64,000 bases of DNA. Source: Coptis chinensis (lineage: Eukaryota; Streptophyta; Magnoliopsida; Ranunculales; Ranunculaceae). This document shows positions 33,200 to 64,000 of this stretch, piece after piece (the first letter of the stretch is position 1; every line of letters starts with the position of its first letter). The stretch is from positions 71,209,501 through 71,273,500 of the forward strand of contig CM027384.1 of assembly GCA_015680905.1 (NCBI GenBank), read 5' to 3'. The notes below the pieces were generated by a model. It saw nothing but the letters and a program-made list of their open reading frames with translations. It was not told where the DNA came from and did not search any database. Both the position numbers and the translations under genes were made by a program.

Positions 33200-34736
33200 T
33201 GATAAGTGCTCAAAAAGTGCTATTTAACCCTTGATTATGCTTCTTGTTTAGCCCTCTTAGTGGACTAATAGTGTTTGTAAGTTATGTTTTATGATTCTAC
33301 AGGTGAAAGAGAGAGTTTTGTGGAATATTAGAGAAAAAGGGGTAAAATTGAGCAATTCGGAGCATTAAGGATTGCATGGGAAGCCCGTGGACAATCATAG
33401 AGAAGGCCAAGGAATTAGAGCTATTAAATATGCGACTTGGACCTATTTTAAAGCCTATTTGGAAGCCCAAGGCCAAAAGATTTGTTACTTGGACCAAAGC
33501 CCGCAAAAAAGGATATAAGGATAGAGCAGAAGAGATAAAATAGGCTTATGAGTCTGGGACGCTTGGATCGAGCGTCCAGATGCATTGATCGCGTCTGAGA
33601 CACATGAATAGTGCGTCCAGACGCATGGATCGACACTGTAGCCAATTTCTTCTCAGTTTTGGAGACGGTTGGACTCTGAAAGAAGTTTATTTGTATTAGG
33701 AAACAAATAACGGTTTGGAATGCTTCTAGAGCTCATTGTAACCTCTATAAATAGAGGACCTAAGTGCCTCATGTAATTTGCCAATTCACTTATACTCTTG
33801 TCCCCAGAACTTAAGGCAGAGAGAGATTAATAATAAAAGATCGGTTTTAACTAGCTGAGTCTTAATAAATTAGTCTTTCTAGTCTTATATTCTTCGACTC
33901 TTCTTCTTCTCGTTCTTCCTTCTCTATGGAAGGCTAATCTTCTCCTTCAAGGGAGGAGATGAAGCCAGTGCTTAAGGTTTAATGATTCTTCTAGTTTATA
34001 GTGTTCTTCAATCAGGTTAGTTCTTTATGTTTTTAGTTATTAGTTTCATTGCCCAGACTAGGGGATGGAAGTATAGATTAAAGTTTTTATTTATTGCAAT
34101 CGAATATCATGCTAGTTTAGGGTTTTATTTATTGCAATTGAATATTTGCTAGTAATATGCTTTTATTTATTGCAATTGAATATAATGCTATAATAGGGTT
34201 TTATTTATTGTAATTGAATATTATACTATTATTCTCTACTTTTCTTCTAGTTGTGTATTGTTTTAGAGTAAGTGAAGTATTCCTTGTGTTTGCCTTAGAT
34301 GGTGATTCATTGAATAGCTACCCAAGCTCACATAAAAAGAAAGAAGATACTAGTAACATGAATATAGGAACAACCTTAAGTAGAGTTATTCGTTAACGAT
34401 GTTTCGTCCAAGAGGGCATCGACACTCGCTCGATTGTCTAATTGTAGTCTACTTGTGAGAACAACCATGAAGCAAAAGGTCATTGAATCAAAAGTGTTTG
34501 TGGATTCTAATCTCTTGAATTCCCTCTCTTATAAATTCTTAATAGTTTAGTTTAGTTTAGTTTAGCATTAGAATCTATAATCTCTATAATTATAGTTTTT
34601 AATCCTTCAAACCCCCTTTTCAGTCCTGTCTTTCATATAAACATACACTTAAAAGTGGAACGATACCCTATTCATCCTTTACTCATTGAGGGATAATTAG
34701 GTTTTGATACGCTTCTATTTTGTTCAACGACCATAT
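33200..34736 (+). repeat. E2 5' LTR, first part
   Basis: It matches 45025-46536 of the 3' LTR. It contains CpG-bearing repeats of the kind GACGCATGGATCG (33555-33640), a TATA box CTATAAATAG at 33745, and four copies of a minisatellite with TTTATTTATTGCAATTGAAT (34085-34230). It also has a run of TTTAG units (34546-34569). The last ~40 bases of the LTR are at 39541-39576. Confidence 0.9.
33745..33754 (+). promoter_or_regulatory. TATA box in E2 5' LTR
   Basis: CTATAAATAG is repeated at 45572-45581 in the 3' LTR and, on the minus strand, near 57215 in the related E3 LTR. It lies about 50-60 bases after the CpG-bearing repeats. It is probably the element's Pol II promoter. Confidence 0.6.
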
Positions 34737-34764
34737 CTACAACATAAAAGACATTTAAAATCAC

Positions 34765-35105
34765 TCCATAAGTGATGTCAAAAATATACGACGTCACTTT
34801 TGCAAGTGATGTAACTGGTGGCGACGTGAAAAGTTAGGGTTTTCCACATCACTTTTTAAACGATGTCCACAAGTGATGTTACTTTACATCACTTTTTAAT
34901 TGATGTCCACAAGTGATGTTATAACTTTACATCACTTTTTAATCGATGTCCACAAGTGATGTTATAACTTTTAGCATAACTTTTTAAGTGAAATCAATAA
35001 GACCGATTAAACGTCACTTAGAAAGTGACGTTTCATTTAGATTCCAAATTACTTGTAAAGTGATGTGAAATAACTCTTTAAATCACTTTAAAAGTGATGT
35101 CCCAT
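34765..35105. repeat. Left subterminal repeats of the CACTA-like transposon
   Basis: There are about ten AAGTGATGT or ACATCACTT motifs in alternating orientation. They include three near-identical units of about 50 bases, each with GATGTCCACAAGTGATGTTA. Confidence 0.85.
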
Positions 35106-36721
35106 TTAACAAAAAAAAAAAAAAAAAATTGCCCATATCATCTCAATATAATACCATTTTCCTGGTCATTTATCATCAAATAAAGATGAATTGTATCTTA
35201 AAATCACATTCATCACACGAATATCATCTTCAATTACAAATATTACACTATATACAAAAAATTGTAACAAGCCAACATATACCAACAAAATTTAATCTAC
35301 AGTACCGTAGTAAGCCAAAAAGAACCACAATCACCCAACCAAGAACCTATCACAGCCTGACTTGATGCAATCAATTTAATCCAAGAACCTATCACAGCAT
35401 AACAAATCACTCTGTTTTCTTTTTTCTGCAGTATGAAATATTGTACTAGAAAATCAAAACAAATTTTATAAAAGGAAAATAAACAGACGGAACATCCGCA
35501 TAATATAGTACCTAAATGGCAAAGGAAGTTCTATAGAAAACAGTTACTTGTGTTCAAGATCAGGTACTTGTGTTCAAGATCAGGTTCAGCCCTATGCCAA
35601 CAGCTGGTTGGAGGACTTGGAGGTTGAGTTAAAATAAAAACGTTGTCGTCCATTTTCCTGCATCACTAGCGAAGTAATCTAAAACTTGTGCCTGCCCAGA
35701 AAAAAAAAAACATTTAAATAGTTGTTAATGATTTCGGTAGTAACACAAATAGCATGTAAGCAGCACCAGTGCTTTAGGCTCCTATCTAGTATGCTAATAT
35801 TTTTCCAGATTACAGTACTCAAATTAATGGTGCAATTGATTAACCATCATAAGACTACCAAAAAGCTTACCACAATACGGATTGTGATAGAGACTGCATA
35901 TACCAATCAGAACTCAAATTGTCTTTAAGCTTAACCCTATAGTTCCCTATGCAAAAATTGGAACCATTTATCAGAAAATTTTATTGCTTAAACTAAAATC
36001 CAAGATAACTTATTAAAGAAAAGAAAAGACAGATAATTTTTAGTTGGTCAGATGATATTGAAAAATTGAGTGGTTTGAACTAGCTAGAAAAAAAATACAT
36101 GCATTCAAGATCGAAGCAAAAACTAGACGGTTTAGAATGTGAGAAGTTGGAAAAACGCAAGCGAAATGGTGTGGTAGTGCAAACCATAAGCACCTAACCA
36201 TTCCATCACAAAAAATAAAAGCAGATGCAACTTTCATAGTAGGTTCCAATTTGTATTGAATGAAAACATAAAGATATACTTCATAGTTCCAAGTGCAAAA
36301 ACAAAAGCAGCAATTGTGTATAAAAAGAAAGATAAAGTGAAGTGTTAAACTGTTCTAGTCCAGGTTGCCAAACTGTGAGAAGGTGTAGTTTTATTATTGA
36401 TTTAGCAAACAGTTAGGTGTAGTTTTATTATTGATTTAGCAAACAGTTACAATCAAAAAGTGAATTGAGGCTGTTGAGAAGAAGGAGAAGATTCCACTTT
36501 GCACTAGTTGGGCAAAAAAAAACTTCCGATGCAGATTGGAGTTTGGGGAGTTAGTGTGTGCAAATGTCCAATAACAAGTCCATAGGGACAAAAACAACAA
36601 CAATCACATTATCCCCATGCATCTAATACGAACAAACATAGTAAGAGCCCTTTGCTTGAACTAAACAGAAGCATACATGTTGTATATTAGAGAAGAAACA
36701 TCGTTGTATAGACCTTCAAAT
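35106..36721. other. Transposon interior without recognised gene
   Basis: AT-rich DNA downstream (minus strand) of the COG6 stop codon, with no convincing frame. It has an A18 run at 35111 and two short direct repeats: GTACTTGTGTTCAAGATCAG at 35545/35564, and GTGTAGTTTTATTATTGATT at 36384/36417. Part may be COG6 3' flank. Confidence 0.35.
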
Positions 36722-38460
36722 TCATAATATAGTCCTTATCTGACCTGGTGTATGTCTGGCCAATGACTTGGGATCAGGATAACCGTTCTCTAGATCCATG
36801 ATTGCATTATAAACCAATTCGTAAGCTTCGGCAAGTGATCTTGCTGCACAGATACAAGCCTCTGAACGTAGTTGTGGGACTTGCATCTGTTCAAATTCAG
36901 GCAACGAACCTTCAATCCCCAAAACGAGTCCAAATAATGCTCTCAAACAATTTGAAAGTGATACAGGTGGCATGCCCTCTACCTCTGCTAATGACAATTT
37001 AGTTGATGCATCACTATCTTCCTTGTTTACCAAATTCTGAATTTGAGATATTCGGTTAACAAACCATATTTTCTTAGGATGCTAGCCACCTCTTTCTCCA
37101 CAAGAAGGTTCACATTTTTCTCAATCATGGATCGAAGATTTTTAACATTCTCTGCAGCAACATCATGTCCTAACAATGGTTGCTGGATAGCAGATAAGCA
37201 ATTGATGAGGAAGATCTTGGATGGCATGTCATTACTCTACATGACAAAATGATTTTCGAGGTAAACATACATAGCTCATTAAATACTTACAAAAAAACAA
37301 AACCCGATGTCATTTAATTATTTTCACTTTTTACATTACACGACACAAAATTGATTCTAAGAAGGAAAGAAAGAGAGGAATGTAATACTTGTTAGATTGA
37401 GCAAAAGCCAACTTTACCAAAGGCCAAAGGAACCAATGTACACATATAGCAACACATATAACTGTCTGAAATCAACACATATAGCCGTCTGATATACTCA
37501 CCATTTTAGATGGCTTCAGTAAATAGTCCATTAAAGAGAGTAAAAAATGCAATAATTATATTGCTAACCAACCGGGTCGATATATATTAAGGAGATCTCA
37601 AGTAAGAACCTCATAAATGTAGCTCCTCTGCACGGCACAACATATAACACTACAGTATTCTCTTATGACAGCTCGTATCAGACGCAAATTGTCGATGAAT
37701 TTGTGAATTAACAAATACATGGAGAATGAACAGAGGTTTGCAACTCACCTGAGAAGATGGGATGGAACTGCTGTTGTTCAAAAGAGCATCAACAGGTGAT
37801 GAAGAATCCCTAGTAAATTGGCTTGAATCAGAACTCGCTCTACTTCTCCTTAATGACTGGACTGCTTTGGATCTATGTGTTTTCGTTGCTTGCTCAAACA
37901 TCTGCAGGGTGTAAGAATCTGAGTAAATGACTTAAAAGCAAAAGGACTCGCGGACTTGACATCTAATCAACTCGAAGACACGCCTAGAACTTGTAAAAAA
38001 CGTATGGTAGAAGAACTTCTTTCAGTTTTCATCAAAGAAAGAACTGGTTTTAATGGTAGAATAGAAGTTGTCAGAATCTAAGACATCTGCAGTAGACTAG
38101 CTTACTCATGTTCTCACTAGTCACTAGATCTCCAATAATTAAACCACCTTAGGATGTCAACCACAGTAAATACACGAGTATAGAACTTGTCTTTAAACCA
38201 ATGGCCGTGACTCAACCATAACATTAAGTTATCAAGAAAAGTATTGGCTATTCCACCAAATCTATTGCTTACCCTCAGCAATAGGAACGTAGGAGCAAGG
38301 ACTCAAAGGTTATTGCAGTAATACTTGAACGATGGGCTCCAGTGAAGCAGATATCACAGGCTCAAAGTCAAGCTTCTTCACTGAAGCAGGAACCATCAGG
38401 CTATTGTAAGTATCAATAATTTCCAAGAATATCAAACTCCTTAAACATCTTGCCGATTAG
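36722..38460 (-). pseudogene. COG6: Captured fragment of COG6 (conserved oligomeric Golgi complex subunit 6)
   Basis: COG6 is a subunit of the COG tether for retrograde vesicle traffic within the Golgi. Three exons on the minus strand match the C-terminal half of plant COG6. Exon A (about 38460-38325) encodes LEIIDTYNSLMVPAS ... SASLEPIVQ. Exon B (37901-37749) encodes MFEQATKTHRSKAVQSLRRS, then RASSDSSQ. Exon C (37236-36722) encodes KIFLINCLSAIQQPLLGHD, then GSLPEFEQMQVPQLRSEAC and NGYPDPKSLARH, ending QIRTIL and a stop. Introns keep GT-AG borders and correct phase, so genomic DNA was captured, not cDNA. A frameshift near 37030 separates the two halves of exon C. The N-terminal half is absent, so this is a non-functional copy; the parent gene must be elsewhere. 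Confidence 0.9.
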
Positions 38461-39159
38461 AGGTGATCAATTTGACAATGTAATCAATGCCAACTTCAAA
38501 ATAAACTCCACAGTTTTGAAAAATTAATCCCATTTTAAAATACAAAGTGATTTCTTCATATAGAAACCAACTCATATCACCTGTAAAATTCTTGAACTTG
38601 AAGCATGAGAGCGAGAGAGGGAGGGCGCCAAGGCTAGAAAAATGCGAGAGAGATTAATTGAAGAACGAGAGAGAGAGAGAAAGAGAGACGAGGTGGGGGT
38701 GAGAAAGGAGACCTTCTCCTTTTGGGAGTGGGATGGATTTCGGTTTCTAGGCTGAGTGTGTTGGGTTATGAACTATTTGAACTTTAATTTGGAGTGTCGG
38801 TTTTCTGAAATGGGAAATAATGAAAAATTTAGACAAGGCTCCCATATGGTGGCAGTTTTGGGGTGGCTGGTGAATATGGTGGGGGTGGTGGCGGCTTTGC
38901 TTAGCGAGGGTTTTGATTAGAGAGAAAATCACACGGGGTGTGGTGCTAGAAATTTCATTTGAGGCAGGCCCCAAAAATTTGGTGTAAAGTCCAATAATTG
39001 ACCTTCCGCAATAGCAATTAACCCAACAATGCAATCAATTTTATTGCACCCATTCGTCCAAACGCTATCCTTAGTTTTCCAAAAAAAAATTATAGGGTTT
39101 TTTTATAAAATCTATTGAATAAATGCTATCTATTTATAGTTTTCTAGTAGATTTGGAAG
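38461..39159. other. Transposon interior, GA/CT-rich tract
   Basis: At 38600-38690 there is a long GA-rich tract (CT-rich on the minus strand), such as is common in plant 5' untranslated leaders. It lies upstream of the COG6 exons in their orientation. It could come from a promoter or leader captured separately. No coding frame is supported. Confidence 0.3.
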
Positions 39160-39520
39160 TCACATTATAAGTGATTTCGAAAACTTGGCAAAGTCACTTT
39201 TAAAGTAATGTTGAATACATAGATATTACATCACTTTATAAGTGACACGGTGAGTAACAACACCTTTAAAGTGATGTTGAATACATGGATATTACATCAC
39301 TTTATAAGTGATACGGTGAGTGACATAAAAAAGTGTTACTACATCACTATTACGACATCACTTATTAAAATAATGTTGTACAACTCTACTATATTAGTTT
39401 CTAAAATAAGTGATATTAAAAAAAAATTGTGATAATTATTACATCACATGCTGAGAAAAGTGATGTCATAGTTTTCATATGACATCATTTCACTGAAAGT
39501 GATGTAAAATTAGTGATGTC
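39160..39520. repeat. Right subterminal repeats of the CACTA-like transposon
   Basis: Eight or more copies of AAGTGATGT / ACATCACTT-type motifs, partly as a direct duplication (CTTTAAAGTGATGTTGAATAC at about 39200 and 39265). They mirror the left side. Confidence 0.85.
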
Positions 39521-39540
39521 ATATGTCATATTTGTTGTAG

Positions 39541-39576
39541 TATATACCATCTCACACACAAAAAGAGGCATTGTCA
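39541..39576 (+). repeat. E2 5' LTR, last part
   Basis: It continues the LTR beyond the transposon and ends GCATTGTCA, identical to the end of the 3' LTR at 46564. Confidence 0.85.
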
Positions 39577-39578
39577 AA

Positions 39579-39590
39579 TGGCGCCGCTGC
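39579..39590 (+). promoter_or_regulatory. E2 primer-binding site
   Basis: TGGCGCCGCTGC lies two bases after the LTR, the same spacing and type as in A2. Confidence 0.75.
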
Positions 39591-40169
39591 TATTTTAAGT
39601 TGTTTATGTTTAACATTTTCTTTCAAGATTAGAAGTTTCGATCTTGAGGTAGTTTTAGCCGCATCATCCATCCTTTTGAGAAAGAAAGAAGCTTGAAGGA
39701 CATCTTGAAGACAAGATCTACCATCCTGGTTAGTCGAATCTTCATTCTTTTTATTTCATTCTTAGTATAGTTGCATCGTAATTTAGTTTTATTTCTTTCT
39801 TAGTATAGTTGCATCGTAGTTTAGTTTTATTGCTTTCTAATATAATTGCATTTAGGACCTTTTCAACAATTGAAGTTGTAAGCCAACACAGCGAAACATC
39901 AAACTTTAGTGTTTCTTGTCTGAATCTTGACAAACGGACTATCGTCTGTGGGTCGTGGTACTTAAGCAATCCAAGTGATTCACCATAACCCTAGAAGAGA
40001 CAGTTTTAGACAACGGGCGAGATACTAGCTACAAAGCCCAACCTAGTTAAAGGAAAGTAATTTTGCATATTAGTATAATTTAGAATAGTTGCATATTAGT
40101 TTAATTGCATTCAAGCATAGTAGGATACTTTTTCATCATCTTCGCATAGCAAGAATACTAGACAAGATT

Positions 40170-41422
40170 GATACAATGGCCGCACGCAATGATGGAGGTG
40201 TTTTGGACACCAATAATCCTGAAGCTATCCCACCCATGCAAGCATAGCAGAGGAAGAAGCTGAGCGATTTCTATTTGCCAATCATTGGAGACCTACCCAG
40301 CAGTATTGTTTTTCTAGAGACAGAATCTAACCAGTTTGAACTTAGAGCATCAGTAATCTCTATGCTTCCAAAGTTCAATGGTTCAAACAATGTTCAGCCA
40401 TATGTTCACATGAACAAATTTCTATCAGTCCTCAGAACTTTCAAGAACCAGAATATCAAAGATGAAAGTATCAAGTTGATTCTTTTTTCGATCTCACTCG
40501 AAGGTAAAGCCTTTGAATGGTTAACTGCACAGCCGATCAATTCAATAGATAACTGGGAGAAGTTGAAAACAAAGTTTATGAACAAGTTCTACCCTTTTGT
40601 AAGATAGATGCCATGCAGAAAGCCATCGGCAATTTCAAAGGAAAGGTGACTGAAGAATATCATCAAAGCTAGGAGAAATTCAATAATCTGCTAGTCTTGC
40701 GTCCACATCATGGTTATGATAAGAGCACATTGGCTCATTTTTTCTATCGAGGACTCTCGATGATGAACAAGCAGATGATACAGTCAATGCACAAAGGCAA
40801 GTTTACATCAATGGATGGAGAGGAAGCTTACAACTTTCTCGAGAATTTAGCTGAAGAAACACAACAATGGACTACTAGCAACGAGGATGTTGCTTGCATG
40901 GAGGGGGAGCCAAAGCAATTTGGTTACCAAGCACATGAACAATCAGATCAAGAACTGAAGTCTATATTGGCTAGCCTGTCCACCAGCATTGAAACTCTGA
41001 GTAAGAAATTCAACCAGTTCTCTATGAATCCCTCCAAGATAAACAAGTCTCAAGCTAAATCTCTCCCAATCATACAAGCTAGTCAATATTGTGAAGTCTA
41101 TTCGGGCACTTCCCATGCAACTCTAGAATGTCCTGGTTACTATCAACATGCATTAGTTGGAGAGTACAATGTGAACTCATTTCAGAGGGCCAACCAAGGT
41201 GGTAATAACTTTCAAGGCAATTATTGGAGACAGAACGCTGGACCCCCAAGTTCTCAAGATCAAAGTTATATTCCACAGACAAGTCAAGCTTCACTGTTGG
41301 TCCCTCAACAACAATTATACTCTCAACAGAATTCCAATACAAGTGGAGAGTTAGTGCCTAATCCTAGGAGAATGCTATTACTTTGTTATCACAGAAAAAT
41401 TAGAAATTTGAAAGTGTTCTAG
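40170..41422 (+). pseudogene. E2 Gag region
   Basis: The structural Gag protein, opening near 40173 (MAARNDGGVLDTNN, also seen in E3). The core has MLPKFNGSNNVQPYVHMNKF, then EGKAFEWLTAQPINS and KLKTKFMNKFYP. The second half has HHGYDKSTLAHFFYRGL, EEAYNFLENLAEETQQW, and a C..C-type CEVYSGTSHATLECP cluster, then a Q/N-rich tail. It is broken in about two places. Confidence 0.75.
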
Positions 41423-41750
41423 AGCTTCTTGCATAGTCTCAGGTTAATCTCCAGCAATCTCAGGCAAGTCAATGTTCTAGAATGGAGTCTCTAGAGGCTA
41501 AGGTTGACCAACTCACTACTGCTTTGTCTGTAAAGACACAAGCCACTCAACCTAGCTTATTGGAACCAATATCGAGGAGTGAAGATGTATGCCACATTGG
41601 GACAACTTCTAGTACTGATCACCTCCATGATCAGGTCACCTGCCATTACCTCGGATCGATTAAAGATAGACAACGAGGTTGACTTACCTTCTCATGATGG
41701 CATTGTTTCTGAGAACAATCGGGTCAAGATTCAAATGAAGTTCAAATGAA

Positions 41751-42851
41751 GTGGGAGAAATCCTTTCAACTCCCATTTGTCAAGATAACCAAGACAAGAT
41801 ATGCAAGAATGCCCAAAGAGAAAAGAAGAGCACACATTACATGCTGATGTGTTTGTACCAAAGGCACCTTTTCCTATGTTTTTGCTCAAAGCAAAAAAAG
41901 GACAAGCAATTTTTAGAGATGAAGGATGCATTTGAGAAAGATAACATCAATATCCCCTTTCTCAAAGCGATCAAGCAGTTGCCATCATATGCCAAATTCT
42001 TGAAGGATGCATACAACATAAAGAGAAGTACTCATGTTCCAAAGCGAGCATTTCTAGCTGGACAAACAACATCTATTATCCATCAGCAAGCTCCAGTCAA
42101 GCTCAAAGATCCAGGAAGTCCTACAATATCATGCAAGATAGGAGAAAAATTCACGGGTAATGCTCTTTTAGATCTTGGTGCTAGTGTTAATCTCTTGCCA
42201 TATCATGTGTACCAAGCATTGGGCCTGGAGAACCTAAAGCCTACACAAGTCAAATTGAAGTTAGCTGACCGCTCTACCAAGATTCCCAGAGGCATAGTTA
42301 AGGATGTTCTTATTCAAGTAGCTGATTTCTACTATCCAGTGGATTTCATTGTAATAGACACCAAGGAGGCCTTTGATAAAATTTCAATTATTCTAGGCCG
42401 ACCTTTCCTTGCTACCGTAAAAGCTTTGATAAATTGTCACAACGGTGAAATGAAGATCAACTTTGGTAAGATGTCCATGGACATAAATATCTTTCACCTG
42501 TTGTATAAGGATTGTGATGACACCGAAGGTAGAGAGGTGTACTTCCTTGATAGCATGATACAAGAATCCTTCCCATTTGAAGATACAATTGAGAGTGCTC
42601 AATCTACAGAAAACTGTGATGAACTTGAGAACCCTACCACAGAGGCGTTGCTAGCCATGTTCTTGGAATCTCTACATAAAATTCAGGATTTAAGTGAGCA
42701 TAATGGAAAATTGGCAGAGAGAGTATCATATCTTGAAAAGATGAACTCTACATTTAAGGATGAACAACAGACTTCTACCCAGAAAAATCAGTTGCTAGAG
42801 AATCAGCTTAAAGAAGTTTTAGAAAAACAACAGAATCTAGAAGTGAAATGA
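41751..42851 (+). CDS. E2 protease and coiled-coil frame
   Basis: A 366-residue uninterrupted frame. Residues about 60-90 form the block FLKAIKQLPSYAKFLKD shared with A2. The aspartic protease active site NALLDLGASVNLLP is at about residues 138-151, the FYYPVDFIVID block near 200, and ILGRPFLATVKALINC near 215-230. After the protease the protein becomes acidic, then coiled-coil (about residues 300-366, heptads such as LAERVSYLEKMNSTF). Reverse transcriptase does not follow. The in-frame upstream limit is uncertain, because this frame may have been fused to Gag. Confidence 0.75.
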   Translation: MGEILSTPICQDNQDKICKNAQREKKSTHYMLMCLYQRHLFLCFCSKQKKDKQFLEMKDAFEKDNINIPFLKAIKQLPSYAKFLKDAYNIKRSTHVPKRAFLAGQTTSIIHQQAPVKLKDPGSPTISCKIGEKFTGNALLDLGASVNLLPYHVYQALGLENLKPTQVKLKLADRSTKIPRGIVKDVLIQVADFYYPVDFIVIDTKEAFDKISIILGRPFLATVKALINCHNGEMKINFGKMSMDINIFHLLYKDCDDTEGREVYFLDSMIQESFPFEDTIESAQSTENCDELENPTTEALLAMFLESLHKIQDLSEHNGKLAERVSYLEKMNSTFKDEQQTSTQKNQLLENQLKEVLEKQQNLEVK

Positions 42852-43120
42852 GTCTTCTGAAGCAGAAAGTGGACCATATTGATAAGAAGAATTGCACTAC
42901 TGAAGCATCTTCTACACCATCATTGTCTGAACGAGAGAAGTATGTGAGCCAGTCTACCGCCCACCTTGAGCACAGTCAGCCAGACATCCATTATCATCAC
43001 TGTGGTGGTAAAGGGCACATCAGATACTATTGTCCTGTTAAAAAAAAAGATTTTTGTCAATCTTCTACACAGAGGAACCACAAGGCCTATCACACAATCA
43101 TCAGACTTGAAATAGTTTAA
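42848..43120 (+). CDS. E2 zinc-knuckle-like segment after the coiled coil
   Basis: A 90-residue frame overlapping the end of the previous one by four bases. It begins SLLKQKVDHIDKKN, which continues the coiled-coil character. It contains HHCGGKGHIRYYCP, a CCHC-type nucleic-acid-binding knuckle, at about residues 50-63. In most elements this knuckle lies at the end of Gag, before the protease; here it follows protease and coiled coil. It was probably part of the same product. Confidence 0.55.
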   Translation: MSLLKQKVDHIDKKNCTTEASSTPSLSEREKYVSQSTAHLEHSQPDIHYHHCGGKGHIRYYCPVKKKDFCQSSTQRNHKAYHTIIRLEIV

Positions 43121-45024
43121 GGTAGAGAAGCAACTTCACTAGCAATCTTTTCGGCATATCAAGGAGTATTTTTGACAACCTACAAGGTAAGACCTCCTCG
43201 TCCTCCAAACATTCGTTAGATTTGGGTAAGAAAATCTGATCTACTCACTCCAAATTGATAATGCATGATATATAGTCTTAGGGATCTGACTTAAAAAGAC
43301 CTAACAAAAAAAAATGTTAAAAGGAAATGTTCTTATTTTTTGGATTAATTTTGATATTCGGCATCAATGGTAACATCTTCCCTTTTTCTCTGACATAGTT
43401 CTTGTTGATAAATGCTCTGACATAGTTCTTGTTGATAATTTTGATTAATTTGGATTAAATGCTCTGACATAGTTCTTGTTGATAGAATTCTTTATCAAGG
43501 CACCATCATAGTACTTAGTCAGTTTTGTGTACTTTTGCTAGAAGGGAGATTTAAACCCCTAGTAAACTAGAAGTAGAATTTTTAGACTTAGCCCGTGAGA
43601 CTTGAGCTTTATACCTATTCTTTGGAGAGTTCTTACGAAAAATCCGAGTCTTAGTGACTCAACATCTTTCAGTTCTTTATGTCGTTGTAATATAGTCTCA
43701 TTATTTATTGATTTGGTTAATCACGAAGTGACATCAACTGGGGAGATAGCCATTAGGTCTTGTAGTCTATTCGAAACAGAGTATCATACTGATAAGTCAA
43801 GTACCGAACCCATTCAGCCTTTATCCCATCTAGTAGGACCATCATGTTAAACCCTTTTGAGCCTTACAATAAGCCATTTTCTTTCATAAAACCCTTTACC
43901 CTTTACCCAACTCCAGACAAGGAGTATAGCCAAAATATTTATCAGCCATACCCATATGTTTCTGAGAATACGAGGGGCATAAAGAGGAAGAAAGAGCACA
44001 AAAGGAAGATTACAAGGAAATACCAGAGAGATATAATGAAGACCATCATTCTGTTCTAAGTGAAAGAAGCTAGTGGAAAACAAGCATATCCAGTACTAAT
44101 CAAGGGTATACCACTAAGCTAATAAAAAAAAAAAAAAAAATCGAACAGAATGGATGGAAAAGCTAAGACAAAGGAAGAATTTTCTCTGTAATACAGAATT
44201 TGAAGAAATCTTCCAAAGAATGAAGCAAAACCCTTAGTGTTTTTCAGAAACAACCTTAGAATCCTTTTTACCTTTCCTTCATAAACTAATACCCAAGCCA
44301 AGTTACAACCCATGACTTATCACTACAGTATGGTACAAAGTCTAGAATAGGTGAAAGGATGCTAAAGTGAAGGACCCGACACTTCATATGTGATTGACAT
44401 TCTTTCCATGAGACTACTTTTATTCATAAGTCTGTTTTTCAAGGTAGTATGTGGGATGTTCATATGCATTATTCTTTTCCCCACATACATGAGGTAAAAT
44501 AGTAGACCATCTTCCGAGAGAATCTTTTCTGAGAGTATGACCGGTGAGGATTGAAAGTCGAGATTATCTACCTATAGTAAACTAAGGATTCCGTTTCTTG
44601 GATAGGAGAGTATAGGAGATTGACTAAGTACACACATAAGCTTTGATTAAGAATTTTGTTAATTTTTACTATCTCCTATCATAATTTATGAGTCTTTGCA
44701 GCAATGTAGTTAGCAATGGAGACTGTCTGTTGGAGTAAGCACTAAGTGGGTAAGGAATTTCTCTCTATGAAAAATATTATCATTCTTGAACATGTTATTG
44801 ATTGATTTTGTGGGTATATCACCTGAAAACCCTCACGAGACTATAACTCATCCTTTTTGGGGAACTTAAAGGTTTAAAGCCTTGTTGTATATGGTAAATA
44901 CAATCGCAATGCCTGCGAAAATGAGTTAGGATTTTATTTTTGTTATTAGGATGTGATTTTGATCACTTATCTATTTTTTTTATCTTATTTGCTAAGAGAC
45001 TAGCAAAAGGCTAGTTGGGAGTTG
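43121..45024 (+). other. E2 3' non-coding region
   Basis: No gene was found. It contains a conserved block at 43273-43301 (TAGTCTTAGGGATCTGACTT) also found in A2 (8655) and, four times, in E3. It also has a triple direct repeat CTCTGACATAGTTCTTGTTG (43390-43480), an A17 run at 44124, and a purine-rich AGCAAAAGGCTAGTTGGGAG just before the 3' LTR, probably the polypurine tract. Confidence 0.55.
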
Positions 45025-46564
45025 TGATAAGTGCTCAAAAAGTGCTATTTAACCCTCGATTATGCCTCTTGTTTAGCCCTCTTAGTGGACTAATAGTGTT
45101 TGTAAGTTATGTTTTATGATTCTACAGGTAAAAGAGAGAGTTTTGTGGAATATTAGAGAAAAAGGGGTAAAATGGAGCAATTCAGAGCATTAAGGATCGC
45201 ATGGGAAGCCCGTGGACAATCATGGAGAAGGCTAAGGAATTGGAGCTATTAAAGATGCGATTTGGACCTATTTTAAAGTCTATTTGGAAGCTCAAGGCCA
45301 AATGATTCGTTGCTTGGACCAAAGCCCACAAAAGAGGATAGAAGGATTAAGCAGAAGAGATAAAATAGGCTTATGTGTCTGTGACGCATGGATCGAGCGT
45401 CCAGACGCATTGATCGCATCTGAGATGCATGAATAGTGCATCCAGATGCATGGATCGACAATATAGCCAATTTCTTCTCAGTTTTGGAGACAAAGTTGGA
45501 CTCTGAAAGAAGTCTATTTGTATTAAGAAACAAATGACAGTTTAGAATGCTTCTAGAGCTCATTGTAACCTCTATAAATAGAGGACCTAAGTGCCTCATG
45601 TAATTTGCCAATTCACTTATACTCTTGTCTCCAGAACTTGAGGCAGAGAGAGATTAATAATAAAATATCGGTTTTAACTAGCTGAGTCTTAATAAATTAG
45701 TCTTTCTAGTCTTATGTTCTTCGACTCTTCTTCTTCTCGTTCTTCCTTCGCTATGGAAGGCTAATCTTCTCCTTCAAGGGAGGAGATGAAGCCAGTGCTT
45801 AAGGTTTAATGATTCTTCTGGTTCATGGTGTTCTTCAATCAGGTTAGTTCTTTATGTTTTTAGTTATTAGTTTCATTGCCCAGACCAGGGGATGGAAGTA
45901 TAGATTAAAGTTTTTATTTATTGCAATCGAATATCATGTTAGTTTAGGGCTTTATTTATTGCAATTGAATATTTGCTAGTAATATGCTTTTATTTATTGC
46001 AATTGAATATAATGCTATAATAGGGTTTTATTTATTGTAATTGAATATTATACTATTATTCTCTACTATTTATTCCGTGTGTTTGCCTTAGATGGTGATT
46101 CATTAAATAACTACCCAAGCTCACATAAAAGGAAAGAAGATACTAGTAATATGAATATAGGAACAACCTTAAGTTGAATTATTCGTTAACGATGCTTCGT
46201 TCAAGAGGGCATCGGCACTCGCTCGATTGTCTAATTGTAGTCTACTTGTGAGAACAACTATGAAGCAAAAGGTCATTGAATCAAAAGTATTGGTGGATTC
46301 TAATCTCTTGAATTCCCTCTCTTATAAATTCTTAATAGTTATTTTAGTTTAGTTTAGCATTAGAATCTATAATGTCTATAATTATAGTTTTTAATCCTTC
46401 AAACCCCCTTTCCATTCTTGTCCTTCATATAAACATACACTTAAAAGTGGAATGATATCCTATTTATTCTTTACTCATTGAGGGATAATTAGGTTTTGAT
46501 ACGCTTCTATATATTTTTGTTCAACGACTATATACCATCTCACACACAAAAAGAGGCATTGTCA
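45025..46564 (+). repeat. E2 3' LTR
   Basis: A complete LTR of 1540 bases, TGATAAGTGC to GCATTGTCA, with TATA box at 45572 and the same minisatellite as the 5' copy (45900-46060). It serves as the empty-site reference for the transposon at 34737-39540. Confidence 0.92.
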
Positions 46565-46639
46565 ATATTACTATTGGAAACTCTTTGTTTTGGTATCTTG
46601 TGGTCAATAAAATCTAATTGGTTCTATTTTGAATTTCAG

Positions 46640-48313: not shown

Positions 48314-48751
48314 TGTGATACGGGACTTAGACAAAGACAAAGGGGGAAGGCAGTGTAACAAGGAAGGTCGGGAAGTACAGGATCATGTCTGCAAAACCCT
48401 AGAGAGTGGATGTGGCATAAGTACTAGCGTGGGATGAAGGGAATGGGAACGGTCTGGATAGGTGTGACCCAAAAGAGGAGTAACGACTGAGTCAGCGAGA
48501 CAAGAGAGGGAAGCAGCTTAATACGCTACCCTGGGGAGCTGGGGATTCGAGCCGCAGAACCCTAAGAGGCAGACGTGGCCGTGGTATGGCAAAGAGGAGA
48601 GTCGTCAGATGAGGAGACAGATGGACGGTACATAGAGGAAGGGGGAAGGGTATAAAAAGAAGGAGAGGAAGAGAGAAAAAGAGGCCACATTTGAGAAAGA
48701 GAGGAAAAAGGAGAGAGAAGGAGAACTAGGAAGAGATTTTAGGTTCATACA
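48314..48751 (+). repeat. E4 5' LTR
   Basis: It starts TGTGATACGGG, where Helitron coding similarity stops, and ends TTCATACA two bases before the primer site. A TATAAAAAG box is at 48651, about 100 bases from the LTR end. The second LTR is out of the window, so the left border rests on the Helitron break and the TG start. Confidence 0.65.
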
Positions 48752-48753
48752 TT

Positions 48754-48771
48754 TGGCGCCGTCTGTGGGGA
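48754..48771 (+). promoter_or_regulatory. E4 primer-binding site
   Basis: TGGCGCCGTCTGTGGGGA, the usual form in Tat/Retand elements, directly after the 5' LTR. Confidence 0.85.
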
Positions 48772-48797
48772 GGAAGAACAAAAGCAAAGTAGGAATG

Positions 48798-50075
48798 GCA
48801 CCTAAGAAACGGGTAGGCAGACCGAAGAGAGTGGCGGTGCAGGAACCGACACCAGAGGCGATGATTGATGAAGAAGGAGGCATGAGAGAGGATCCGAAAG
48901 CAGAAGAGACGCAACTCATGAGAGAAGAGATAGGGAGGTTTAGAGAGGAGAATGAAGGGTTGAGAAGAGAGAGAGAACGAGAAAAGGAAGGCGCAGGCGG
49001 AGAGGCAAGTGATAGCTCTGAAGAGGAGGAGGATGAGCCGAACCTCATTGAGAACTCGGTGACCGGCTTGACAATCAAGCAGGTGCAAGAGATGATAGAC
49101 AAGGATAGGGAAGCGAACCAGCAGAAGGCTAAGAGTTGGGGAGGAGCAGCTAGTCAGGTGGTGGCGGGGCTAAACCACAATCTATTAGCAGACGTCATCT
49201 GGATGTCGGAGGTCCCAAAGCATTTTAATGAGCCTAGATTCGAGAGATACGATGGTAAAGGGGACCCAGCATATCACATCCATCATTTCCGGCAACAGAA
49301 GCCACTGTGGCAAGAATCAAGATATGATGGGCTGAGATGCATGATGTTCCCGACCAGTTTAAAAGGAGGGTCGTTGGACTGGTATTATCGGTTGCCAACA
49401 GGGAGCATAAAGAATTTCCAAGAGTTGGAACAAGCATTTGTAGATCATTTCATACACCAGAAGAAGCGTGCGGTGGACATCGCAGCCTTGTTCAATGTGA
49501 GACAGAGGTCAACGGAGTCAGTAAGGGAATATTTGTGTCGGTTCAAAGCTGAGACATTGAAGGTCGAGAATCTAGATGAGAGAACCGCGGTGATCGTGTT
49601 TGAGCGAGGGTTGTGGCCAGGAACGGGAGTGCATTAGTCAGTAGCGAAGAACGAGATTACAACCTTGTATAAGCTATATCCGGGGGTAGAGAAATACATC
49701 AGGTATGAAGACACCTTACAAAAGGAGTCTAAGAGATCAGGGAAAGCTGTTTTATCGTTGGAGAAAGACAGAGAGGATCGAAGGGAAGGGACGTCTGAAA
49801 GAGAAAGTGGGGTGTACCGCCACCACCCTCTGAGGGAGGAAAGAGCCCGAGAAGTGGCTCGAAGGGAGAACAGAGAAAGGAAGTCATACCGGGAGATAGA
49901 GGTGACATCATTGAATAGACCGTTGAGAGAAATATTGTCATTGATTAAAAACCTGCAGGGGTACGAAGGGCTGCGGAACACACCAATAGAGTTATCGGAT
50001 AAACCCTTCTGCGCATACCACCAGATGAGAAACCATGAGACGGACGACTGTTATGCGCTAAAGTGGATGGTTTAG
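48798..50075 (+). pseudogene. E4 Gag region
   Basis: The likely start is the ATG at 48798 (MAPKKRVGRPKR). The upstream in-frame ATG at 48753 overlaps the primer site and is less likely. There is a basic N-terminus, an acidic/coiled middle (MREEIGRFREENEGLRRERE), then the Gag core with FNEPRFERYDGKGDPAYHI and GGSLDWYYRLPTGSI, followed by HQKKRAVDIAALFNVRQ. The C-terminal part at 49665-50075 ends with CAYHQMRNHETDDCYALK, a zinc-finger-like cluster found in Tat-clade Gag. It is broken in about one place. Confidence 0.82.
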
Positions 50076-50825: not shown

Positions 50826-52765
50826 CAATTACAATGTGTCCCCGCAGGGAGAAAGTTGGAGCCAGCGGAGGGACTGAAAACACTAGATGAGCTCGAAGTG
50901 GTGAATATTGGAGACGGGGAAGAAGAAAGGTTCACGTCGATAGGATCCAGTCTGTCAGAGGACTGGAAGAGTACATTGATACAATTCTTGTCAGAAATAG
51001 AGATGTGTTTGCGTGGACTATTGAGGATATAACGGGATTAGACACAGAATTTGCATGTCATAGGTTACACATGAGGGAAGATGCCAAGCTAGTAAGGCAA
51101 AAGATGTGAAGCGTTAGACCGAAGTACACAGAGGGCATTCACAAAGAGGTAGCGCGGTTGAAGGGAGCTGGAATAATTTAGGAAAAGGAATTCACCGAGT
51201 GGTTATCCAATATGGTCGCAGTACCGAAAAAAAATGGCAAAGTATGTATGTGCGTAGATTTCATGGATGTGAATACAGAGTGTCCGAAGAATAGTTATCC
51301 CATGCCATGAGTAGATGAGTTGGTGGATAGGATGACAGGGTACAAAATATTCTCTTTCATGGACGCGTCTATGGGGTATAACCAGGTCGCGATGTATAGG
51401 CCGGATCAGGAGAAAACATCATTTGTGGTAGAAGGTGGCACGTACTGCTATACAAGGATGCCATTTGGGCTAAAGAATGCTGGAGCCACTTTCCAAAGAT
51501 TGGGAGAGAAAATGTTTGAAAGCAAGATTCGGAAGGGAATTGAGATATACATAGATGACATGGTGGAAAAAAGCATGTCCGAGGAGGAGCATTTAGAGGG
51601 CTTACGGGAGACATTTGGGATACTGCGAAAGTACAATTTGAAGTTAAACCCAGAGAAGTGCACCTTCGGAGTGACCAAGGGAAAGTTCTTGGGTTACATC
51701 GTGACCCATCCGGGAATTGAGGCCAATCCGAAGCAGATAAGAGCCTTGATAGAAATGCCTTCACCGCAGAACGTCAAGGAGGTGCAGTGGTTAGCTGGAA
51801 GGGTGGCGGCTTTGAACAGATTCATTTCCAAGTCATCCGATAAATGCAGGCCACTGTATCGATTATTGAGAAGTACCATAGATTTCTCGTGGACCGCGGC
51901 ATGTGAGGAGGCATTTCAAGAGTTGAAGGGGTATTTGGGCAAGGCGCCTTTATTGTCTCGGCTCGAGGAGGGGGAGAAGTTGTACTTGTATTTGGGGGCC
52001 ACCGAGTATGCAATAAGTTTAGTGCTGGTCCATCTAGTAGAGAGGGTGGAGAAACCGGTGTATTTTCAAAGCAAAACACTACTGGATGCAGAGACACGGT
52101 ATAGTAGGATCGAGAGGTATGCCCTGGCATTGATCTTCTCGGCTCTCAAGCTGAAGCCCTACTTAGAGTCGCACTCCGTGGTGGTGGTGACGAACTTGGC
52201 TCTCAAACAAGCTTTAAGGACTGAAAAATCAGGAAGAATGCTGAAATGGCCAGTGATGCTTAGCGCGTTCGAGATACAATATCAGGTAAGGACCGCGGAG
52301 AAGGTGGAGGCAAAGTTTTTGGCCGAGTTCCCCGCCGAGGATCCCACTTGGGGAGAAGAGATGGTTATGGAACCAGAGAGGGAGGGGGAGTCCGACTTAC
52401 TGGACCCTTGGGACAAGAGGAATGGATGGAGGGTATTTGCAGACGGGTCTGCCACTGACACATGCAGCGACATAGGGGTTGTGTTGGTTACACCTGATAA
52501 CAACAGAATAGAACATACAATGAAGTTAGGATTCGCAGCATCCAGTAACGAAGCAGAGTGTGAGGCAGTGATAGCAAGACTGAGAATGGCCGAAGATCTG
52601 GGTGTAAAGGAACTGACCGTGTATTCAGACTCGAATCTCGTGGTGTGTCAAGCTAATGGATGGTTCGCTGCTCGATGTCCGCGAATAGCAAAGTATTTGA
52701 AGGTGGTGCGCGAGAGATCTAGCAAATTTGTGAACCTCCAATTTGTACATCTGGGGTCGCGGTGA
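50826..52765 (+). pseudogene. E4 reverse transcriptase, RNase H and second RNase H region
   Basis: A 481-residue open stretch (51320-52765) holds most of it. Reverse transcriptase has FSFMDASMGYNQVAMY, RMPFGLKNAGATFQRL, the catalytic box EIYIDDMVEKS and LKLNPEKCTFGV. The linked RNase H contains LYLYLGATEYAISLVLV, FQSKTLLDAETRYSRIE and YLESHSVVVVTNL. The second RNase H starts at about 52430 (VFADGSATDTCSDIGVVLV, then ASSNEAECEAVIARL and VYSDSNLVV). The first motifs of reverse transcriptase lie upstream at 51000-51320. It is broken in about three places overall. Confidence 0.85.
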
Positions 52766-53042
52766 GAATAGACATGCGCATGCACTAACGTATGTTGTGG
52801 CAGCCATGCCCAGGTCAGAGGAAAGGACGATACGGGTAGGGATATTGGACAAGTCGAGCACGGAAAAAGTGGTAGAGGTGTGTCAGTTCATGGAAGAAGA
52901 AGGGGGATGGATGGAGCCCATCAGATATTACTTGGAGGGAAAGGAGGTTTTGGACAAGAAGAAAAAGAGAAGGTTGGAATAGACGTCCCAGCGGTATATG
53001 CTGGTGGAAGGGGAATTATACTGAAAGAACTTCAATGGACCC

Positions 53043-54138
53043 TTGTTAAAATGTCTGGGGTCACGGTTGGCATCTGAGGTGATGGCAGAATTGCATGAAG
53101 GGAACTGTGGGAACCATTCGGCAGGAAGGACTACCGCGCTCCGACTTTTGATACAAGGCTACTTTTGGCCACATATGAAGAGGGACGCGGTGGACTTCGC
53201 AAAGAAATGTGACAAGTGTCAAAGATTCTCACAGCTGATATTCACACCCACGGAACCTCTGCATAATGTCTCGAGTTCGTGGCCTTTTGCAATGTGGGCT
53301 ATGGATATTGTGGGACCATTGCCCATGGCCAGCGACAAAAGGAGGTATATGCTAGCAGCCACAGACTATTTTACTAAGTGGATAGAGGTCGTGCCTTTGC
53401 AGCAAGTCAAGGAAACATAGATGATTAAATTTCTGTGGGAAAACATCATGTCGGTTTGGTTTGCCGTACGCCATCATTGTAGACAATGGGACACAGTTCA
53501 CGGGAGCTAAGGTGACGGCGTTTCTACAAGCATACAAGGTGAAACAAGGATTCTCTGCCCCCTACAACCCCGAGGGCAACGGCCAGGCGGAATCTTCTAA
53601 CAAAACGATAATGAACAATCTAAAAAGGAAGTTAGAAGATAACAAGGGTGTGTGGGCTGACGAGTTGAACCATGTGCTCTGGGCTTACCAAACCACACCG
53701 CAGACAAGCACCAAGGAGACTCCCTTCGCCTTAGTATACGGCATCGAGGCCATAATTCCTACGAAAATGGTGGCGCCCACTATGCGAACCAAGGCTGTGG
53801 AGGAAGGGTCGAATTGGCGCATATTAGCAGGTGACTTGAATCTGGCAGAAGAGAAAAGAGACTCAGCTCGCATCCGATTGGAAGAGTATCACAGAAGGCT
53901 GCAAAGGCAATACAACAAAAGGGCCCGACCACGGCGTTTCAAGATTGGAGAGTTGGTGCTACGCCGAGTAACTCCGAGTACAAAAGAAGAGAGGGATGGG
54001 AAGTTGGGTCCTAACTGGGAGGGGCCATACACCGTGGTGGAAGTGGGAGGTTCAGGTACCTATAGGTTGTAGACCATGAAGGGTAAATTGATAGACAAGC
54101 CTTGGAACATAAGAATGTTGAAAAAGTTCTACAACTGA
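53043..54138 (+). pseudogene. E4 integrase region
   Basis: The zinc-binding domain is at 53076-53230 (ELHEGNCGNHSAGRTTAL, GYFWPHM, KKCDKCQRF). The core has FAMWAMDIVGPLP, then IIVDNGTQFTGAKV and PYNPEGNGQAESSNKTIM, which carry the D, D, E triad positions. The C-terminal domain has FKIGELVLRRVTP and GPNWEGPYTVVEVGGSGTYRL, with the tail running to about 54138. It is broken in about two places. Confidence 0.85.
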
Positions 54139-63641: not shown

Positions 63642-64000
63642 ACACTAGAAAATTCTATCGCGAAAACAACAAAAACTATCCTACTATGCAACTATTCTAA
63701 ATTATACTAGAATGTAAAACTACTTTTCTTCAATTTGGGTTGGGCTTTGCAGCTAGTATCTCGCCCGTTGTCTAAAAGTTTGTCTCTTCTAGGGTTATGG
63801 TGAATCACTTGGATTGCTTAAGTACCAGCTGCCACAGGCGATAGTCCGTTTGTCAAGATTAGGACAAGAAACACTAGAGTTTGATTTTTATTTGTGTTGG
63901 CTTACAACTTCAATTGTTGAAAAGGTCCTAAATGCAATTATACTAGAAAACAATAAAACTAAACTATGATGCAATTATACTAAGAAAGCAATAAAAAGAA

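Follow-up and report, generated by a model that had tools for sequence, protein, structure and literature searches.

The capture of host gene fragments by CACTA transposons has been described in plants under the names Pack-CACTA and Pack-TYPE (Gisby & Catoni 2022, PMC8903248; review PMC13317346; Catoni et al. 2019, as cited there). In the sections available of these publications, the ends of a non-autonomous DNA transposon enclose host coding DNA and are amplified as a family, and a fusion model has been put forward in which two elements are joined together with the intervening DNA (PMC8903248). An earlier example from soybean is Tgm-Express1, a CACTA element of 5.7 kb with parts of exons as well as introns from several host genes which, in the text at hand, is located in an intron and gives rise to transcripts beginning at the promoter of the host gene (Zabala & Vodkin 2007, PMC1947982). 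In this line, the available part of a study on CACTA elements of Chenopodium reports an AP2 fragment of 80 bp located upstream of a transposase-associated domain (PMC8978399).

Here we describe an element in a 64,000-nucleotide stretch of the Coptis chinensis genome (C8:71209501-71273500, hereafter the window), which is very probably the product of a Pack-CACTA-type capture of genomic DNA from COG6, a housekeeping gene for a Golgi protein, within a composite insert, with one capture followed by amplification. Similarly to the Pack-CACTA elements, it has non-autonomous ends that enclose host coding DNA and have multiplied as a family, and a host fragment of identified source, the COG6 gene on C3, is found within its terminal inverted repeats (TIRs). 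It shares with Tgm-Express1 the carriage of host exons together with introns, and with the Chenopodium elements the presence of captured host gene fragments. On the other hand, in comparison with the Pack-CACTA elements as outlined in those sections, the COG6 element adds to its intron-containing fragment of ~1.9 kb the terminus of another CACTA-type family as well as a third repeat. Unlike Tgm-Express1 as presented in the text at hand, it lies in the LTR of a retrotransposon, has a leader-like tract of its own and carries one identified captured host gene. The kind of system is already known (Pack-CACTA, Tgm-Express1); COG6 as the captured gene is new within the literature searched, and the sequence-only reading of this DNA, which knew of no report for this gene, agrees with our search as far as it reached.

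Architecture and Insertion Site of the Element

The element is made of five segments that together cover it (Table 1): a left and a right part of one family, A, and between them a third foreign segment, the COG6 fragment and the terminal piece of another family, B (family names are our own labels). As had been read from the letters, the COG6 exons lie between subterminal repeats and inverted ends. The window contains the motif AAGTGATGT 17 times, where 0.89 would be expected, and 16 of these 17 sit in the two ends of the element (10 left, 6 right) on both strands. The left backbone is 91-92% identical to two COG6-free A elements that were fetched in part and compared, and the right end is 93-98% identical to 39 other right ends scored.

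Table 1. Features of the COG6-bearing element and of its host retrotransposon (window positions; exon numbers are our own count from the reading frames of the resident gene)
Feature	Positions	Strand	Remarks
LTR retrotransposon	33200..46565	+	limits approximate; hosts the element in its 5' LTR
Whole element, family A	34737..39540	.	apparently non-autonomous, CACTA-type by its relatives; carries the COG6 fragment
Family-A left backbone	34737..36052	+	subterminal AAGTGATGT repeats at 34770-35100
Third foreign segment	36050..36560	-	aligns in order with three non-contiguous blocks of a dispersed repeat (L060 and others)
Captured 3' part of COG6	36561..38465	-	exon 8 in part, exons 9 and 10, the two introns between these exons and ~155 bp downstream of the stop codon
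COG6 exon 10 (last exon)	36716..37236	-	1-bp deletion near 37058
COG6 exon 9	37749..37901	-	51 codons, starts with ATG, open in the window copy
COG6 exon 8, 3' part	38325..38465	-	approximate limits; the window copy has a frameshift and stops here
Terminal segment of family B	38466..39152	-	provisionally CACTA-type end; TIR remnant CTACTAGAAAA
Family-A right end	39153..39540	+	subterminal repeats

The termini of the window copy read CTACAACA.../...TGTTGTAG, with the outermost CA/TG eroded, and if the ends are taken as eroded in this way the copy runs from CTACAAC to GTTGTAG with TAT on either side. Compared with the empty site of the 3' LTR, two additional bases (CA) are found in its left flank. 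The outer CA/TG were lost, or else the ends have mutated, and this copy is probably immobile. As its sequence stands, the window copy does not end in CACTA, and the CACTA assignment rests on the related copies: four of the five carry CACTACAAC, and thus TIRs starting with CACTA, at both ends, the window copy being the exception, and each of the four non-window copies is flanked by a perfect 3-bp target site duplication (AGT, ACT, GTT and AAC). No stop-to-stop frame of at least 170 aa was found within the limits of the window element, which together with the five segments covering it indicates a non-autonomous element.

The empty, uninterrupted target site is retained near 46529-46533 in the 3' LTR of the host retrotransposon (about 45025-46565), and the two LTRs differ by a K2P distance of 0.0495 over 1534 columns. 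Several other long frames of the window look retrotransposon-like by eye (for instance 40673-42851, 48636-49637 and 51311-54072), and positions 63681-63996 are, on the opposite strand, 90% identical to the right flank of the insertion.

The Captured COG6 Segment and Its Source Gene

The proposal that a CACTA-type element had taken up genomic COG6 DNA was borne out, with three exons (one of them partial) and both introns present on the minus strand. The segment had been placed at 36722-38460, and the homology proved to be somewhat wider (Table 1). Alignment of the element with the COG6 gene on C3 gave two stretches, one of 1043 columns with 92% identity and one of 866 columns with 95%. The 59-aa translation of 37058-37236 matches the Pfam family COG6_C with an E value of 1.8e-11, in comparison with 1.6e-33 for the corresponding exon of the C3 gene. 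The phases of the exons match as claimed, and all five copies preserve the splice dinucleotides of exon 9 (AG and GT) and the acceptor AG before exon 10. The reading frame, however, is broken by the deletion in exon 10 and, in the exon-8 piece of the window copy, by an inserted base and by stop codons in the aligned frame.

A search of the host genome (935.6 Mb in 116 contigs) for the full COG6 gene and for further copies, which the sequence-only reading had proposed, returned a gene on C3 plus five copies of the element. Among the 15 COG6_N matches listed, the two above the family cut-off both fall at the C3 locus (about 107.0 Mb), and the downstream exons found there match COG6_C with E values of 3.2e-18 and 1.6e-33. 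Because the sole above-cut-off COG6_N matches among those listed and the COG6_C exons coincide at this place, the locus is identified from its sequence as COG6, the source gene of the fragment. The copies stop at breakpoints inside the transposon whereas the resident gene continues at C3, as expected for a captured piece and not for a plain COG6 locus.

In the C3 gene (within L013, C3:106994500-107004400), the second captured intron holds an insertion of about 650-660 bp, with imperfect inverted ends and a flanking 9-bp duplication, GGCCTTTAG, that is missing from all five transposon copies. On account of this duplication and of these ends, we take the insertion to be MULE-like. A deletion of ~660 bp within the second intron of the transposon was set aside, since it is the resident gene that has an insertion with a 9-bp duplication. 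The insertion being present in the gene and absent from all five copies, the capture most simply came before it.

Number and History of the Copies

Besides the gene, the DNA search revealed five copies of the segment, namely the window copy and those at C5:36.38 Mb, C9:38.97 Mb, C8:3.06 Mb (C8a) and C8:26.10 Mb (C8b), which are 90-95% identical to the C3 gene depending on the aligned piece. The breakpoint between the 3' COG6 end and the third segment is identical in all five, as are the 1-bp deletion in exon 10 and the join between the B segment and the A right end. Because the five copies share this 3' breakpoint and this deletion, their sequences indicate a single capture that was frameshifted early and amplified afterwards. 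The frameshift of the COG6 piece was thus already present in their common ancestor, and the amplification of the copies would therefore have been independent of an intact COG6 product.

Over the columns in which none of the six rows has a gap, 34 substitutions, a mix of changes on the transposon stem and on the gene branch, set the five copies apart from the gene. A further 18 are common to the window copy and C8b, and 17 to the remaining three copies, and both sub-clades are supported in the tree (100/100 and 99/100). The noncoding K2P distance between the two sub-clades (0.066-0.094) is about as large as that between the gene and the copies (0.056-0.077, uncalibrated), as could be expected if related elements had captured COG6 independently instead of one capture having been amplified. 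However, the breakpoint, the deletion and the B/A join shared by all five copies leave separate captures with a practically negligible probability.

For the copies of a single capture, dN/dS between copies ranged from 0.53 to 2.82 in 10 comparisons, six of them below 0.85, with small synonymous counts (2.5-20), and the gene-to-copy values (0.50-1.13) take in the gene's own branch; codons with gaps were left out and the frame of the gene was kept past frameshifts. These ratios suggest no clear purifying selection among the copies, with a weak constraint being possible. C8b (L012) is the only one of the five with an insertion of ~300 bp in COG6 exon 9 and with a deletion that joins the B segment to the COG6 part.

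The Composite Insert and Its Assembly

The B segment harbours a CT-rich leader and a splice-donor-like exon end (about 38581); the CT tract and TTTTACAG followed by GTGA are both found in it on the same strand as COG6. Two other loci, at C2:16.46 Mb and C8:66.34 Mb, have this segment with 78-84% identity. It ends there in CACTACTAG or TACTACTAG, and outside this terminus the two loci are unlike each other. From the TIR motif, B may provisionally be regarded as a CACTA family. The leader is not the 5' UTR of COG6 itself, a candidate that was rejected because the tract is 78-84% identical to B and meets COG6 within exon 8. The sequence-only reading had correctly noticed a CT-rich leader in the orientation of COG6 and proposed that a chimeric antisense or a truncated transcript might arise from it. 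With leader and exons both on the minus strand, the antisense RNA finds no support, and a truncated sense chimera is at most suggested. The leader is retained up to the COG6 join in the window, C5 and C9 copies. In C8a and C8b homology is missing across it, splice region included, and ~185 unaligned bases at its position in C8a could be a diverged leader.

At two loci on C3, a TNP2 match some 2 kb away from B-type ends was considered as the transposase of B and discarded, as it lies outside the B end. In these two loci (L067, C3:105952800-105957300, and L068, C3:97657200-97661500), which are 97.4% identical over 4.3 kb and apparently constitute a co-amplified composite, it is a CACTACTAG end that is found at that distance from TNP2. 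Splicing also found no support as the origin of the three-block third segment, whose blocks overlap by a few bases and show by eye no GT/AG at their joins.

The joins A/third, third/COG6, COG6/B and B/A show by eye roughly 0-3 bp of overlap or a short filler. They fit end-joining or gap repair, although the joins alone do not distinguish these from a fusion of neighbouring elements. The window element has two A ends and one B end. No precursor for a neighbour fusion was found in the 9.9 kb around COG6 on C3, which align to the element in the COG6 part only. In the course of events that we propose, a non-autonomous CACTA family A would have gained a composite insert between its two ends, made of a B end with its CT-rich leader, ~1.9 kb of genomic COG6 and a piece of a dispersed repeat, presumably put together by end-joining or gap repair. 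A CACTA transposase acting in trans would then have mobilised the element to at least five places, one of them the 5' LTR in the window. The COG6 piece is now most likely a passenger pseudo-fragment.

Searches with both ends showed that family A extends beyond the COG6 copies. The main matches reached at least 91% among the best 40 of 309 candidates scored for the left end and at least 93% among the best 40 of 315 for the right end (window included in both), the latter with 13 further rows of short secondary matches at 70-82%. When left and right ends were paired by eye, the other members of the family measured about 4.4-6.9 kb. Several of them share another interior, and the two fetched in part hold no COG6. 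Two elements (L063 at C2:31.36 Mb and L064 at C8:57.29 Mb, the second of about 6.8 kb by its paired ends) have a common non-COG6 interior that is 97.7% identical over 3662 columns. The transposase domain TNP2 (PF02992) is abundant in the genome, and among the 150 matches scored of 2715 candidates none was seen by eye inside an A element with paired ends.

Coding and Regulatory Potential

Should the leader be spliced to exon 9, exons 9 and 10 of the window copy would be open for 120 codons from the ATG of exon 9. The final 68 bases of the window leader contain another ATG, which is not in the frame of exon 9 and would yield a product of 25 aa if spliced in this way; C5 and C9 have GTG at that position. 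A working chimeric gene could thus be imagined in which the B leader acts as promoter and first exon, is spliced to COG6 exons 9-10 and yields a small COG6-like protein, 120 aa long in the window copy, which could disturb the tethering complex. The leader, its donor-like end, the acceptor of exon 9 and the splice sites between exons 9 and 10, all in one orientation, would suit such a gene, as would the open frame just described. Yet a gene of this kind appears highly unlikely in view of the frameshift common to all five copies, the lack of clear constraint among them, the out-of-frame ATG of the window leader and the leader splice region over which C8a and C8b have no homology.

Small RNAs from the copies might alternatively dampen the resident COG6 in trans, for which five copies on C5, C8 and C9 with 90-95% identity to the gene would offer suitable templates. 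This reading is also very unlikely, since the leader is sense instead of antisense and no inverted duplication of COG6 within the element was found among the 25 longest inverted repeats listed.

A more general idea suggested by the arrangement of the sequence is that family A might act as an exon-trap shell, in which the promoter-like end and first exon of another family are set in sense before spliceable host exons. We consider it improbable; if it held, the copies that keep the leader would be ready to serve as chimeric transcription units for COG6 exons 9-10.

Significance

Altogether, the COG6 element represents a well-documented though fairly ordinary case of a known form of gene capture and opens no new kind of system. 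Since the source gene and the breakpoints are known, together with the empty target site, five copies and a frameshift dating back to their ancestor, capture, breakage and spread can be placed in order. COG6-like gene models at these sites of C5, C8 and C9 would be transposon passengers.
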